From contig SMLU01000002.1 in assembly GCA_007859745.1 (NCBI GenBank), positions 612,942-676,941 of the forward strand: a stretch of 64,000 nt of DNA, written 5' to 3'. Positions 8,559 through 53,316 of the stretch are shown piece after piece (within the stretch, counting starts at the first letter, position 1; every line of letters starts with the position of its first letter). Below the pieces are notes generated by a model that did no database searches, was not told where the DNA came from, and saw only the letters and a program-made list of their open reading frames with translations. Origin of the DNA: Phycisphaerae bacterium RAS1 (GTDB lineage Bacteria; Planctomycetota; Phycisphaerae; UBA1845; Fen-1342). A program made the translations under genes and the position numbers.

Positions 8559-8656
8559 GGAAAGCAACTCCGCCAAGCTGTTTTATCTGTCGCGCGGCGG
8601 CAGTGTCCGCGACAGTCGAAGGACTGTCAACCGTTGATCGGCACGGCAGTTGCGCA

Positions 8657-8911
8657 GGGTGTGACCGAATTTGTGGCAGGCCCGGTGGACATATCCGTCC
8701 GAACCCGCCGCGCCAACCGGCGGGGTAATCTGTCCGAACCCGCCGCGCCAAGCGGCGGGGTCATCTGTCCGAACCCACCGCGCCAAGCGGCGGGTCGACG
8801 TCCCCGGCCGGTGGTAGCAGCTCGCGCAGGATCCTTAACCCACCGCTTGGCGCGGCGGGTTCGGAAAAACAGCCCGGCCGGCGGCGTCTGCCAGGAACTC
8901 CGGCCACACCC
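8657..8911. mobile_element. MITE-like foldback element, copy 1 (255 bp)
   Basis: Terminal inverted repeats begin GGGTGTGACC (8657) and end GGCCACACCC (8911); homology between arms continues inward through 'CTGGCAGAC'-like and 'TCCGAACCCGCCGCG' blocks. The left arm carries three direct copies of the 27-30 bp core (8697-8725, 8732-8760, 8768-8794) and the right arm one inverted copy (8838-8864). Flanking 8-mers are GTTGCGCA (8649-8656) and GTTGTGCA (8912-8919), a 7/8 match consistent with an aged target duplication. No ORF inside. Confidence 0.75.
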
Positions 8912-8919
8912 GTTGTGCA

Positions 8920-19143: not shown

Positions 19144-19499
19144 GGCGATGCCTCAGCAGGTGCGCAGCCGAGAACGCTCGGCTTGGCGAAATCCGAATCT
19201 TGAAACGTGATGCAAACCGCGGCGAACGGAAGATCCGCGGCAAACTGCGCCGGGCGCGCCTCACGAGCGGTGTGAACGAATGGTGAGCCCGCAGACGGTA
19301 TCCTAGTGACAGCCCCGCCGACGATGCAATTGGAATACTTCCTACGGGCCTCTTTCGGGCTATCCCGATCGCGCCGGCGCTTTTCCGAACCCGCCGCGCC
19401 AAGCGGCGGGTTGACGATCGTCAGCGTACGGCGCCCCATCTGCCGCGGAGATGACCCCGCCGCTTGGCGCGGCGGGTCCGGACCAATCGCGGCGAGGCA
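19144..19499. repeat. Intergenic region with foldback-element core pair
   Basis: No gene seen. Contains a forward core (19384-19410) and an inverted core (19455-19480) of the CCGCCGCGCCAAGCGGCGG family with the usual TGACGATCGT after the forward core. The outer GGGTGTGRCC ends are not recognisable, so this copy is decayed or internal only. Confidence 0.75.
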
Positions 19500-21335: not shown

Positions 21336-21391
21336 CCACCCCGGAACCGCCGCCGCGCGTGTCAATCTTGCGCGTCCAGCCCGACCGTCTT

Positions 21392-21562
21392 TCCGAACCC
21401 GCCGCGCCAAGCGGCGGGGTAACGATCATGAGCGAACGCCGCCACGCACGCCGGAGATGCTCTGCCGAACCCGCCGCGCCAAGCGGCGGGGTAACGATCA
21501 TGAGCGAACGCCGCCACGCCCCCAGGGACGTCAACCCGCCGCTTGGCGCGGCGGGTTCGGAC
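21392..21562. repeat. Cluster of three foldback-element cores
   Basis: Forward cores at 21392-21420 and 21464-21491, each followed by the same ~28-bp sequence (TAACGATCATGAGCGAACGC...), and an inverted core at 21534-21562. The forward unit of ~57 bp has been duplicated. Located directly upstream of purM. Confidence 0.8.
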
Positions 21563-21629
21563 AGACATGCCCGGGCCAACCCGGCCGATTGCTGGAGAAC
21601 CGCGGCGCTTTCGGCTAAAAACGCCCGCG

Positions 21630-27933: not shown

Positions 27934-28078
27934 CGGTGTGACTCTGGATTCCGGCACGCTCGGCGGGCATATCTGTCCGAACCCGCCGCGCCAAGCGGCT
28001 GGGCGACGTCCCGGGCCTATGACGCGCCGCGCGCCTACGATCGTCAGCCCGCCGCTTGGCGCGGCGGGTTCGGAAAAA
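27934..28078. mobile_element. MITE-like foldback element, copy with truncated right end
   Basis: Left end CGGTGTGACT (27934) matches the GGGTGTGRCC terminus, followed by the 'CGGCACGCTCGGCGGGCATA' outer block, forward core (27975-28003), and inverted core (28048-28075) with AAAAACGGCCCGGCCGGC beyond it. The right terminus is not recognisable before the stop of the next gene at 28120. Confidence 0.65.
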
Positions 28079-28119
28079 CGGCCCGGCCGGCTACAGGCGT
28101 CGGCGCGTCGAGCAGATGG

Positions 28120-32757: not shown

Positions 32758-33936
32758 ATGAAGAAAAAAGCCGCCCGACGAATCGGCTCATCAACGGCCC
32801 CGGCCCGAACGGACGCCGCGGTCGCCGACCTTGAAGCCGCGCTGAATCGCATCGCTCCTTTCAAGCTCGCCGCCGAATGGGACAACGTCGGCTTGCTCGC
32901 CGGACGGCCCGAGTGGCCGGCGCGACGGATTCTGCTGGCGATCGATCTGACCGACGCCGTCGCCCGCGAAGCGATTCGGACGGAAACTGACGCGCTCGTG
33001 CTCTATCATCCGCCCATCTTCAAGGGAATCCGCAGCGTCACGCCGCGGGCCGAGTGTCCGACCACGCTGCTGCCCGATCTGCTGGCCGGCCGCGTGGCGC
33101 TGCTGGCGGTGCACACCGCCATGGACGCGGCCGTCGGCGGAACGAATGACGTGCTGCTGGATGCGTTCGACCCGGCCGAGCGGCTCCCGCTGACGCCGGC
33201 GGTCGAGCGCGAAAGCGAATACAAGCTGGTTGTGTTCGTGCCGCCGGCCGGCGTCGAAAGGCTGCGAGCCGCACTGGCCGCGGCGGGGGCCGGCCGCATC
33301 GGCCACTACGACGAATGCAGCTTCGAACTCGCCGGGCGCGGCAGCTTTCGCGGCGACGAGACCACGAATCCCACGATTGGCCAGCGCGGCCGGCTGGAGC
33401 ACGTGGCAGAAATTCGCCTGGAGATGATCCTGCCGAAGTCGCGGCTCGGCGGCGTCGTGCGTTGCCTCTATGCGAATCACCCGTACGAGGAGCCCGCGTT
33501 TGATCTCTATCCGCTCGCGGGAATCCCCGGGCGCGGGCAGGTCGGGATGGGGCGCATCGGACGGCTCGCCCGGCCGCGGCGCGGCGACAAGCTGCTGCTG
33601 GCGCTCTCCAAGCGGGTCGACCTTTCAGCGGCGACCGTGGTTGGAGATTTGAACCGGACGTTTGGCTCCGTGACGACGGCCGCCGGGGCGTTCGGCGTAT
33701 CGTTCTTCACCGACCCGCATTCGCTCGTGCTGACGGGCGAATTCAAGCACCACGACGCCCTGGAGTTGCTCAAGCGCGGCGTCTGCGCGGTCTGCCTGGG
33801 GCACTACACCAGCGAACGACCCGTGCTGGATGCCGTTCGGGCCCGGCTGACGGCCGACCTGTCCGGGGCGGAGGTGCGCATCGCCAAAGCCGATGCGCCG
33901 CCTCTGCGTCCGCTCCCGACGTCGATTTTTCGCTGA
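32758..33936 (+). CDS. NIF3-like dinuclear metal protein (YbgI/GTP cyclohydrolase I type 2 homologue)
   Basis: 392 aa. NIF3 fold forming hexameric toroids with a two-metal site; the biochemical role is not settled in the family. 'FKLAAEWDNVGLLAGRPEWP', 'DALVLYHPPIFKGIRSV' (metal His), 'LLAVHTAMDAAVGGTNDVLL' (metal residues) and 'VLTGEFKHHDALELLKRGVC' with 'GHYTSERPVL' are the conserved motifs of the two halves. The insert at ~150-260 with 'YKLVVFVPPAGVERLRAALA' and 'NHPYEEPAFDLYPL' is the PII-like CutA-type domain found in longer bacterial members. Confidence 0.9.
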   Translation: MKKKAARRIGSSTAPARTDAAVADLEAALNRIAPFKLAAEWDNVGLLAGRPEWPARRILLAIDLTDAVAREAIRTETDALVLYHPPIFKGIRSVTPRAECPTTLLPDLLAGRVALLAVHTAMDAAVGGTNDVLLDAFDPAERLPLTPAVERESEYKLVVFVPPAGVERLRAALAAAGAGRIGHYDECSFELAGRGSFRGDETTNPTIGQRGRLEHVAEIRLEMILPKSRLGGVVRCLYANHPYEEPAFDLYPLAGIPGRGQVGMGRIGRLARPRRGDKLLLALSKRVDLSAATVVGDLNRTFGSVTTAAGAFGVSFFTDPHSLVLTGEFKHHDALELLKRGVCAVCLGHYTSERPVLDAVRARLTADLSGAEVRIAKADAPPLRPLPTSIFR

Positions 33937-33972
33937 ATTTGACGGCCTCGCAGGGCACATCGCGTCTGGGTA

Positions 33973-34158
33973 GGGTGTGGCCAGAGTTTCTGTCAGACGC
34001 GGCCAGCAGGGCCGATTTTCCGAACCCGCCGCGCCAAGCGGCGGGCTGACGATCGTTGCCGAGCGGCGGCTTTTGGGCCGAGGACGTCAACCCGCCGCGT
34101 GGCGCAGCGGGTTCGGACAGATGTGCCCGCCGAGTCTGCCAAAACTATGGTCACGCCC
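33973..34158. mobile_element. MITE-like foldback element, best copy (186 bp, perfect 8-bp duplication)
   Basis: Ends GGGTGTGGCC (33973) and GGTCACGCCC (34158). The two arms are imperfect complements over ~75 bp, containing the 'GTCAGACGCGG'/'CCGAGTCTGCC' outer block, the forward core (34017-34045) and inverted core (34090-34118). Immediately outside lie identical 8-mers TCTGGGTA at 33965-33972 and 34159-34166, a target-site duplication. No ORF of its own. Confidence 0.9.
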
Positions 34159-34343
34159 TCTGGGTACTGAGAGCGGCGGCTTCGCAAATCCGAATATCGC
34201 CGCGCTCCGCTCGAACACCATGGGTCAGACTTTTGTCTGAAAATGCCGGACAAATGGCCAAACCGCCTGATTTCCGATATTCTTCCGCGTCGCCGTTCGA
34301 CGCGGCTGTTGGGGGTGTCCCTGACCGACCAAGGAGAGCCCGA

Positions 34344-36437: not shown

Positions 36438-37012
36438 CGGCGAATAGTGAATAGTGAATAGTGAGTAGTGAGTAGTGAGTAGTGAGTAGTGAGTCGCGAG
36501 TCGCGAGTCGCGAGTCGCGAATAGCGAATGAAGCGGGTGCCATGCCGACGGCCTTTGCGTCGGCATGGCCCTCTCGCTACAGGAAACTCGCCGACGGCAG
36601 CCGCGTCAGCACGTCCGGTCCCACCGCGTCAGCACGCCTGGTCCGCGCGTCAGCACGCCCGGTCCCCCCCGCGTCAGCATGCCCTCCCCGCGCCGGCTGG
36701 CGCTCGTCTGTCCGAACCCGCCGCGCCAAGCGGCGGGTTGACGTCCATGCCGTGCATGCCCGACCAGCACGCGGGCGCCATGCCGACGGCCATTGCCTCG
36801 GCATGCCCACGCAGGGCAGGCCAACGCCGGCGACCGAGCCGTGCACCCGGTATATCACGCTTGACATATCTCATAAATGTCATATACTGCAAGTGTGCCG
36901 TCCAAGTGACAGGTGAAACGTGGCAGGAGGCATGGCGGCACAGGAACGGGTCGTTTCACCTTGATCGCCAATCTCATCTTTCGGTCGCCCCGCCGGCGAC
37001 TAGGAGGTGTGC
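36438..37012. repeat. Repeat-rich intergenic region before the toxin-antitoxin pair
   Basis: In order: heptamer arrays GTGAATA/TAGTGAG/GTCGCGA (36440-36528), a palindrome of the GCCATGCCGACGGCC family (36540-36568), about four ~22-bp units with CGCGTCAGCACG (36601-36682), a single forward foldback core (36711-36740), another GCCATGCCGACGGCC palindrome (36778-36806), and then an abrupt AT-rich promoter (36851-36900). No gene seen before 37013. Confidence 0.8.
36861..36888 (+). promoter_or_regulatory. Promoter with overlapping operator for the toxin-antitoxin pair
   Basis: TTGACA (36861-36866), 16-nt spacer, TATACT (36883-36888): the best sigma-70-type promoter in the window. An inverted repeat TGACAT (36862-36867) / ATGTCA (36877-36882) fills the spacer and overlaps both boxes, as expected for an auto-repressor such as the downstream XRE protein. 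Confidence 0.7.
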
Positions 37013-46511: not shown

Positions 46512-46723
46512 GAGTGTGACCGCAGGTTCTGGCAGGCTCGGCGCGCATTGCTGTCCGAGCCTGCCGCGCCAAGCGGCGGGGTGACGGTCGTAAGCGAGCG
46601 GCGCCTCAGAGGCCGGGGACGTCAACCCGACGCTTGGCGCGGCGGGTTCGGACAGAATAGCCGCCCGTCCGGCGAAATGGACACACGCGCCGGCGGCGTC
46701 TACCTTCACTTCTTGCCACACCC
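46512..46723. mobile_element. MITE-like foldback element, copy 3 (212 bp)
   Basis: Left end GAGTGTGACC (46512) with 'CTGGCAGGCTCGGC', forward core (46552-46581), conserved interior 'TGACGGTCGTAAGCGAGCGG' and 'GGGGACGTCAACCC', inverted core (46625-46655), right end GCCACACCC (46723). Flanking 8-mers do not match, so the target duplication is lost or the ends have drifted. Confidence 0.8.
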
Positions 46724-51343: not shown

Positions 51344-51495
51344 TGGAATTGGGCGTGGGAAATCGGCGTGTTCTCCGGCTGGGCGGCGAGCATCTCGCAG
51401 GTCCTGCTGTTACGGCGATGCTCCGCGCGTTTGCGCGGCATCGCGTGATTCGCGTTGCGACCCCCACGGCGGCTTGAACTACTGCGGAGGCGTTT

Positions 51496-51604
51496 GTCCG
51501 AACCCGCCGCGCCACGCGGCCCGGGACTTTCGCACGGGGAGCATCGGCGTCCCGCCGGTGCCTGGAAACAAATAGGGGCGCACCGGCGAGACGCCGATGC
51601 TCCC
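51496..51604. repeat. Foldback core fragment plus GGGAGCATCGGCG pair
   Basis: A degenerate forward foldback core (51496-51522) is followed by the inverted pair of the GAGCATCGGCGTCCCGCCGG family (51536-51560 / 51577-51604). The two repeat families sit side by side in this convergent intergenic space. Confidence 0.75.
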
Positions 51605-52977: not shown

Positions 52978-53123
52978 GGGTTCAGCTCATCCGTCCCCGG
53001 GGAACGTCAGGCGTTGAGGTCGGCTTTCATGGGGCCGACAGGAGAGTATGCAGCATACCGGGGGGCGTCAACGCACCGAAAACCCGCGAGCTGCCGGGGG
53101 TGCGTCCGGCTGTTGCGATCCAT

Positions 53124-53260
53124 CCGAACCCGCCGCGCCCAGCGGCGGGGTGACGAGCGTAAGCGAGCGGCGCCGCCGGACCGGGGACGGCACCCCGCCG
53201 CTTGGCGCGGCGGGTTCTGAAAGACCGCTTGGCGCGGTGCGTTCGGAAAGACCGCTTGCT
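53124..53260. repeat. Foldback cores with partial duplications
   Basis: Forward core 53124-53150, interior 'TGACGAGCGTAAGCGAGCGG', inverted core 53194-53222, then a shortened second inverted core (~53224-53250). The rest of 52978-53316 holds a partial CGCGCGGCTCGGA unit and no gene. Confidence 0.75.
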
Positions 53261-53316
53261 TACGCGCGCGGCTCGGATCGGAACGGCGGGTTCGGAAAGA
53301 CGCCGCCGATCCGACG

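Follow-up and report, generated by a model that had tools for sequence, protein, structure and literature searches.

A foldback MITE with ISKra4-type ends and a REPIN-like interior in Phycisphaerae bacterium RAS1

The window analyzed here, a stretch of 64,000 nucleotides, is part of contig C2 of the 5.5-Mb genome of Phycisphaerae bacterium RAS1 (G000), and carries a 186-bp foldback element between two genes of the same orientation (Table 1). Upstream lies a DUF34/NIF3 gene (32758-33936, + strand), whose end is followed by an octamer 29 bp on and by the start of the element 37 bp on, and a gene for an S9 peptidase (+) is found approximately 185 bp downstream of the element end. When an empty site was sought by synteny in relatives (no same-genus genome among them), this downstream gene was not adjacent to the NIF3 gene, and the order of the neighboring genes is not conserved either. 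An Rfam search across the window returned one tRNA and nothing else.

The first bases of the element are GGGTGTGGCC and the last GGTCACGCCC, with an end consensus of GGGYGTGRCCR..TTTTGGCA, and identical octamers bracket it on both sides. The coordinates and letters of element and octamers given by the first-pass annotation were exact on re-reading of the sequence. The whole element folds end to end into one long imperfect hairpin, both as DNA (-70.1 kcal/mol, z -8.1) and as RNA (-126.7, z -10.7), with 0 shuffles equaling either fold. It is short, devoid of transposase coding sequence and bounded by terminal inverted repeats, as is generic for miniature elements of the MITE kind, and the window yielded no transposase with ends of this type, in agreement with the earlier reading.

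Table 1. Position of the 186-bp element, its parts and further copies of the family in the window
Feature	Position	Strand	Details and basis
Foldback MITE, full copy, both ends	33973..34158	+	186 bp; letters, shared boundaries, fold, flank statistics
Left target-site duplication TCTGGGTA	33965..33972	.	Letters; family-wide 8-bp signal
Right target-site duplication TCTGGGTA	34159..34166	.	Letters
Left terminal inverted repeat GGGTGTGGCCAGAGTTTCTGTCAGAC	33973..33998	+	Matches consensus GGGYGTGRCCRNNGNTTTTGGCA of Phycisphaerae relatives
Right terminal inverted repeat, - strand reading GGGCGTGACCATAGTTTTGGCAGACT	34133..34158	-	Copy comparison
REPIN-like core, two inverted REP hairpins and spacer	34016..34122	+	About positions 44-150 of the model; approximate boundaries
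Arm with REP hairpin 1, CCGA foot, then ACCCGCCGC-GCCAA-GCGGCGGG	34019..34051	+	Hairpin conservation 97-100% in every copy class
Arm with REP hairpin 2, in inverse orientation to hairpin 1	34085..34117	-	Copy comparison
Second two-ended copy	8657..8911	-	255 bp; flanks GTTGCGCA (8649-8656) and GTTGTGCA (8912-8919), 7/8
Two-ended copy, second end weak	46512..46723	+	Without target duplication (3/8)
REPIN core with decayed ends (L017)	27936..28094	-	Copy comparison
REPIN core, ends not recognizable	19378..19486	+	Copy comparison
REPIN core, partial local duplication, ends not recognizable	21373..21573	+	Copy comparison
REPIN core, then further REP fragments	53118..53309	+	Copy comparison
Lone REP hairpin (CTGTCCGAACCCGCCGCGCCAAGCGGCGGGTTGACG)	36704..36751	+	Copy comparison
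Lone degenerate REP hairpin	51491..51520	+	Copy comparison

Copies of the element, their flanks and their core

Numerous copies in the same genome share the exact start and end bases of the 186-bp element. The end pattern GGGYGTGRCCANNGNTNTTGGCAGAC, allowing up to 3 mismatches, has 37 matches genome-wide versus 0 for the reversed pattern. Counting as two-ended those copies in which both ends match at least 15 of 23 positions, we obtained 18, whose flanks are identical at 55% of positions when compared at length 8, versus 23-35% for lengths of 4-7 and 9-12. On average, 4.39 of the 8 flank positions match, versus 2.42 when the pairings are shuffled, where 2000 shuffles gave at most 3.72. The check for 8-bp duplications across aligned copies that the first-pass annotation had proposed therefore yields a sharp peak at length 8 only, reached in 0 of 2000 shuffles, and its view of a non-autonomous transposon with real target duplications is supported by these statistics as well as by the related genomes described below. 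A target duplication of fixed length and multiple copies with common boundaries, both defining features of MITEs, are present. Several full copies lack matching flanks, and 7/8 or 8/8 matches were seen in only 4 of the 18, the weak matches in the others possibly reflecting old insertions or ends misplaced by indels. One could thus argue that the octamers match by chance and that the element is a large hairpin only, but this is contradicted by the family-wide statistics and by perfect duplications in relatives, and we assign it a negligible likelihood. The second two-ended copy in the window has kept both ends, while additional tandem REP hairpins at intervals of 35 bp have lengthened its interior.

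The interior of the element consists of a core of ~107 bp, in which GC-rich hairpins with a CCGA foot at the 5' side are separated by a ~33-nt spacer. The repeated unit is a pair of inverted REP hairpins, as in REPINs, and it also occurs singly; the hairpin itself is found as single units and tandem arrays. A CGTC-tagged REP (PMC3733652) was considered as a name for this hairpin and dropped, since the CCGA foot and a class-3-like RAYT fit better. Copy counts are based on 856 kb and targeted loci: the 856 kb contain 76 clusters of the family, which extrapolates to about 490 loci genome-wide. Among the 55 good copies in these 856 kb, both ends are present in 3, one in 17 and none in 35. Conversely, the core lies just inside 28 of 30 near-consensus ends of the genome, which makes a single origin of the combination of MITE and REPIN likely.

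Two-ended copies are conserved at 0.80-0.81 in the arms, 0.78 in the spacer and 0.98-0.99 in the hairpins. The corresponding values for end-less copies are 0.50-0.55 (shuffled background 0.51-0.52), 0.71 and 0.97. Given that the arms of end-less copies are at background while their spacer still stands at 0.71, and that arms and spacer of two-ended copies are equally diverged, the core behaves as a unit of its own. These figures bear on another reading, according to which all palindromic copies form one MITE family, the end-less ones being old copies with decayed ends whose hairpins are kept by selection (e.g., as terminators or mRNA-stabilizing structures). It would account for the 48 copies of intermediate grade in which one or both ends are partly recognizable, for hairpins far more conserved than the remainder in every copy class, and for the start of the window element 37 bp past the end of the NIF3-like gene. 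Yet uniform decay would not yield the contrast between arms (0.80) and spacer (0.78) in two-ended copies and background arms with a 0.71 spacer in end-less ones, and the same REP also occurs alone and, next to a RAYT gene, in tandem arrays; we therefore regard decay of one family as unlikely. The spacer by itself does not separate two-ended from end-less REPIN copies (permutation p 0.11). The earlier proposal to regard the palindromic repeats of this genome as MITEs holds for a minority that carries the ends; most consist of a REP/REPIN core, with flanking sequence that resembles the ends no more closely than a shuffled control does, and this REP also flanks the RAYT gene.

At one further locus (G000:C2:464276, L046/L104), a MITE-type end is combined with a different palindromic interior (GCCAGGGGCTTCAAGCCCCTGG) and adjoins a gene for an RNA-guided transposase of the IS110 family (283.7 bits), possibly an IS110 inserted at the palindrome.

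Ends in common with ISKra4 transposons

A search with the NF033572 (ISKra4) profile across 114 genomes of the order pointed to the family to which these ends belong. In the one-contig genome G053, a 1550-bp IS (L214) has the ends GGGTGTGGCCATAAATGATGGCA and GGGTGTGGCCATCTTTGGGGGCG and a perfect 8-bp duplication (CGTCACTC); its ISKra4 transposase is split by one in-frame TGA into two pieces, which score 129.5 and 56.6 bits. It is the only two-ended IS found with these ends. One-ended cases add to it: the same ends adjoin ISKra4 C-terminal coding sequence at L246 and L203, and one lies 56 bp from an ISKra4 match at L247 (G037:C316). At L189 (G057), where the contigs stop inside the element, the inner translation (LKRTGMKWDTENAAAMMNLVALRESGQW..) gives a weak match to the final positions of the ISKra4 model and to ISLre2 as well. 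Ends of the GGGTGTGGCCA type are thus common to the element and to IS encoding ISKra4 transposases, together with a duplication of 8 or 9 bp.

Relatives also carry these ends on short elements of about 110-235 bp, with perfectly or nearly matched flanks. In a list of 21 related elements, compiled by hand from loci with both ends visible, 15 show a duplication, of which 8 are perfect over 8 bp (aacacgaa, gctgtggt, gagaaaga, tgacgtgc, cgctgcgg, cgtcgatc and gcccgctc, plus that of L214), 4 perfect over 9 bp (caaggcatt, ctggtcgat, atccctgag, atcaacaaa) and 3 match at 7/8. These same-ended short elements are without the REPIN core, and neither the 186-bp element nor the core was found in 40 relatives, some of which carry such short elements, except for a 33-bp match in G019. 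Two longer loci of the SJ659 MAG, L170 (570 bp) and L180 (708 bp), have similar ends (GGGTCTGGCC) without target duplication, and no transposase was recognized in them by eye; they are possibly longer non-autonomous relatives. Several matches of the end pattern outside Phycisphaerae were set aside, as their codon reading looks like coding sequence (GLATVFGI, as in sensor kinases).

As for a partner in the genome itself, the first-pass annotation had proposed a transposase encoded elsewhere, from families such as ISL3, IS1595, IS256 or IS6, and a genome search for an IS with such terminal repeats. This search, with 856 kb scanned for loose ends and the rest for near-consensus ends only, gave no near-consensus end pair around a transposase, so that the partner seems to be lost, and the families named give way to ISKra4, whose transposase genes are bounded by these ends in relatives; the genome has no match to the ISL3 transposase (Pfam PF01610). 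In the ten intact ISKra4 copies of the genome the ends differ (GGGTCGGCATC; GGGTCGGCATCAACTTAGTGGGTA), and several of these copies show 9-bp duplications (read by eye). From these comparisons of sequence we conclude that the source family of the 186-bp element was probably ISKra4-like and that the parent is apparently extinct in this genome. A MITE may outlive its partner, and a missing autonomous partner is compatible with derivation from ISKra4. Two of the ten ISKra4 copies (L234 and L239, at G000:C1:1490197 and 2431490) have in common ~150 bp of left flank with REP hairpins (97% identity over 1573 bp), and the IS and the adjoining REP element may have moved or been duplicated together.

RAYT genes and REP arrays

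The REP hairpin of the core is also found around a Y1_Tnp gene of the RAYT type (C4:523-1005), with 12 tandem 41-bp units on one side and 3 inverted units on the other. The twelve units directly upstream of the gene (G000:C4:5-492, L162) are near-identical and organized in higher-order, near-identical multi-unit blocks. Class 3 TnpA_Y1 proteins are associated with CnGA-footed hairpins and occur mainly in Planctomycetes, Acidobacteria and Proteobacteria (PMC6006769). The gene has the motifs NHVH, WT and Y-x4-Q, and the same hairpin with a CnGA foot on both sides, as in class 3 TnpA_Y1/RAYT. It thus appears to fit this class, an assignment made from motifs read by eye and the CCGA foot. Related RAYT genes across the order mostly have their own repeats on both sides. 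With 20 Y1 matches in the genome and one locus of the family per ~11 kb, a single REP near a Y1 gene is not significant, and the REP-RAYT link is credible because the arrays are two-sided and inverted. One REP-flanked RAYT is thin evidence on the putative mover of the REPIN.

The REP hairpins flanking a RAYT of the same genome could also be taken to mean that the RAYT (HUH/Y1) moved the whole 186-bp element, ends included, the octamers being incidental. HUH/Y1 enzymes (IS200/IS605) are not known to make a target duplication. The significant duplication peak at length 8 contradicts such a mover, as do the ends, which are common to ISKra4 IS and absent from the RAYT arrays, and we consider it very improbable.

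Other Y1_Tnp genes of the genome form a series on C1, three on the + strand with 1578 bp spacing (G000:C1:2614693, 2616271 and 2617849) and one on the - strand (2619153), which suggests a recent tandem amplification of a RAYT locus. Furthermore, Y1/RAYT-type domains lie in frame and without stop codons inside genes of housekeeping enzymes, a single open frame containing both Y1_Tnp and the Pfam domains of the enzyme. Such loci are found in the genome itself (L153, G000:C4:138083-138547; L159, G000:C3:131537-131788; L155, G000:C1:699246-699482) and in relatives (L272, L281, L287, L288, L289, L290 and L298). The enzymes are class I tRNA synthetases (judged Val-like and Ile-like by eye, and Leu from the editing domain), AlaRS (two genomes), the glycine dehydrogenase GcvP and the purine enzyme PurH (four genomes). 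Low-complexity peptides (PLPHGRGSE, SRDREGA) that look like translated repeats flank several of these domains. This is an intein-like location for a REP-associated transposase.

Proposed origin and comparison with known systems

We propose, with a probability of about 0.78, that the 186-bp element is a MITE of an ISKra4-like IS (with a DDE transposase) that took in a REPIN on one occasion and carried it as cargo thereafter. What we observe are the ends and duplications and, in relatives, ISKra4 transposase genes bounded by the same ends. Since the genome itself yielded no transposase with these ends, we infer the mobility of the element: an ISKra4-like transposase would have moved the window copy and would since have been lost from this genome. 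Acting in trans, it would have recognized the ~24-26-bp inverted ends and joined the element to a staggered cut, giving rise to the 8-bp duplication (sometimes 9-bp in relatives). The interior, which is not recognizably derived from an IS, would be a REPIN of the kind handled by a class-3-like RAYT (HUH/Y1 transposase), taken up a single time by the MITE in what we infer to be the direction of capture; the REPIN stands alone at most of its ~490 loci.

Capture of the REPIN by the MITE is a simpler reading than the reverse, in which the REP/REPIN would derive from the palindromic interior of a pre-existing MITE and would have been adopted later by the RAYT. Such a reverse order is compatible with the spacer comparison and with the fact that core and MITE both look lineage-specific, as judged from the 40 relatives. 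But RAYT relatives with flanking repeats of their own occur across the order, so that the REP system looks older, and same-ended short elements exist in relatives without the core; we find the reverse order unlikely. Following the capture reading further, two unrelated transposition chemistries may have acted on one unit: a REPIN propagated by HUH/Y1 would have been captured by an ISKra4-type MITE and spread by a DDE transposase, persisting after the loss of this enzyme through the RAYT system or through selection on the hairpins. We put this scenario forward tentatively, at somewhat less than even odds.

The element resembles the ISKra4 family in that its ends begin with GGG, same-ended IS of relatives encode NF033572-type transposases, and duplications are 8 or 9 bp long. 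Unlike ISKra4 IS and MITEs derived from them, it is without transposase sequence, no autonomous partner was found in its genome, and its interior is a REPIN rather than a recognizable IS remnant. Two described MITEs, Nezha and MITEAba12, have parent transposase families that differ from that of the present element. Like Nezha (named in PMC3733652) and MITEAba12 (PMC6382973), it is short and non-autonomous, with inverted ends and a target duplication. A literature search, which was not exhaustive, returned no paper tying MITEs to ISKra4 in this sense, and the present results tie a MITE group to this family.

On the side of the core, the likeness to class 3 TnpA_Y1/RAYT systems (PMC6006769) extends from the motifs NHVH, WT and Y-x4-Q to the CCGA-foot hairpin arrays flanking the gene, the hundreds of copies and the planctomycetal host, but in RAS1 the REP pair is carried within a DDE-type MITE as well. 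As in REPINs and BIMEs (PMC3116915), the repeated unit consists of two inverted REP hairpins and a short spacer, but its foot is CCGA rather than of the GTAG type, and a minority of copies have extra arms and target duplications. The closest precedent for the combination are the REP dimers lying regularly inside longer palindromes in Anabaena variabilis (GTAG-15) and H. neapolitanus (CGTC-1), where the palindrome was not identified as a transposon (PMC3733652); in the present case it is identified as one by its target duplications and a parent IS family. This offers a concrete second route for the spread of REPINs in such hitherto unexplained palindromes, and cautions that repeats described as palindromic in a single genome can comprise two mobile systems, one nested in the other. 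The parts (MITEs, ISKra4, REPINs, class 3 RAYTs) all belong to known kinds, and it is their combination that is new: a palindrome demonstrated, via target duplications and parent IS, to be a DDE-type MITE carrying a REPIN.
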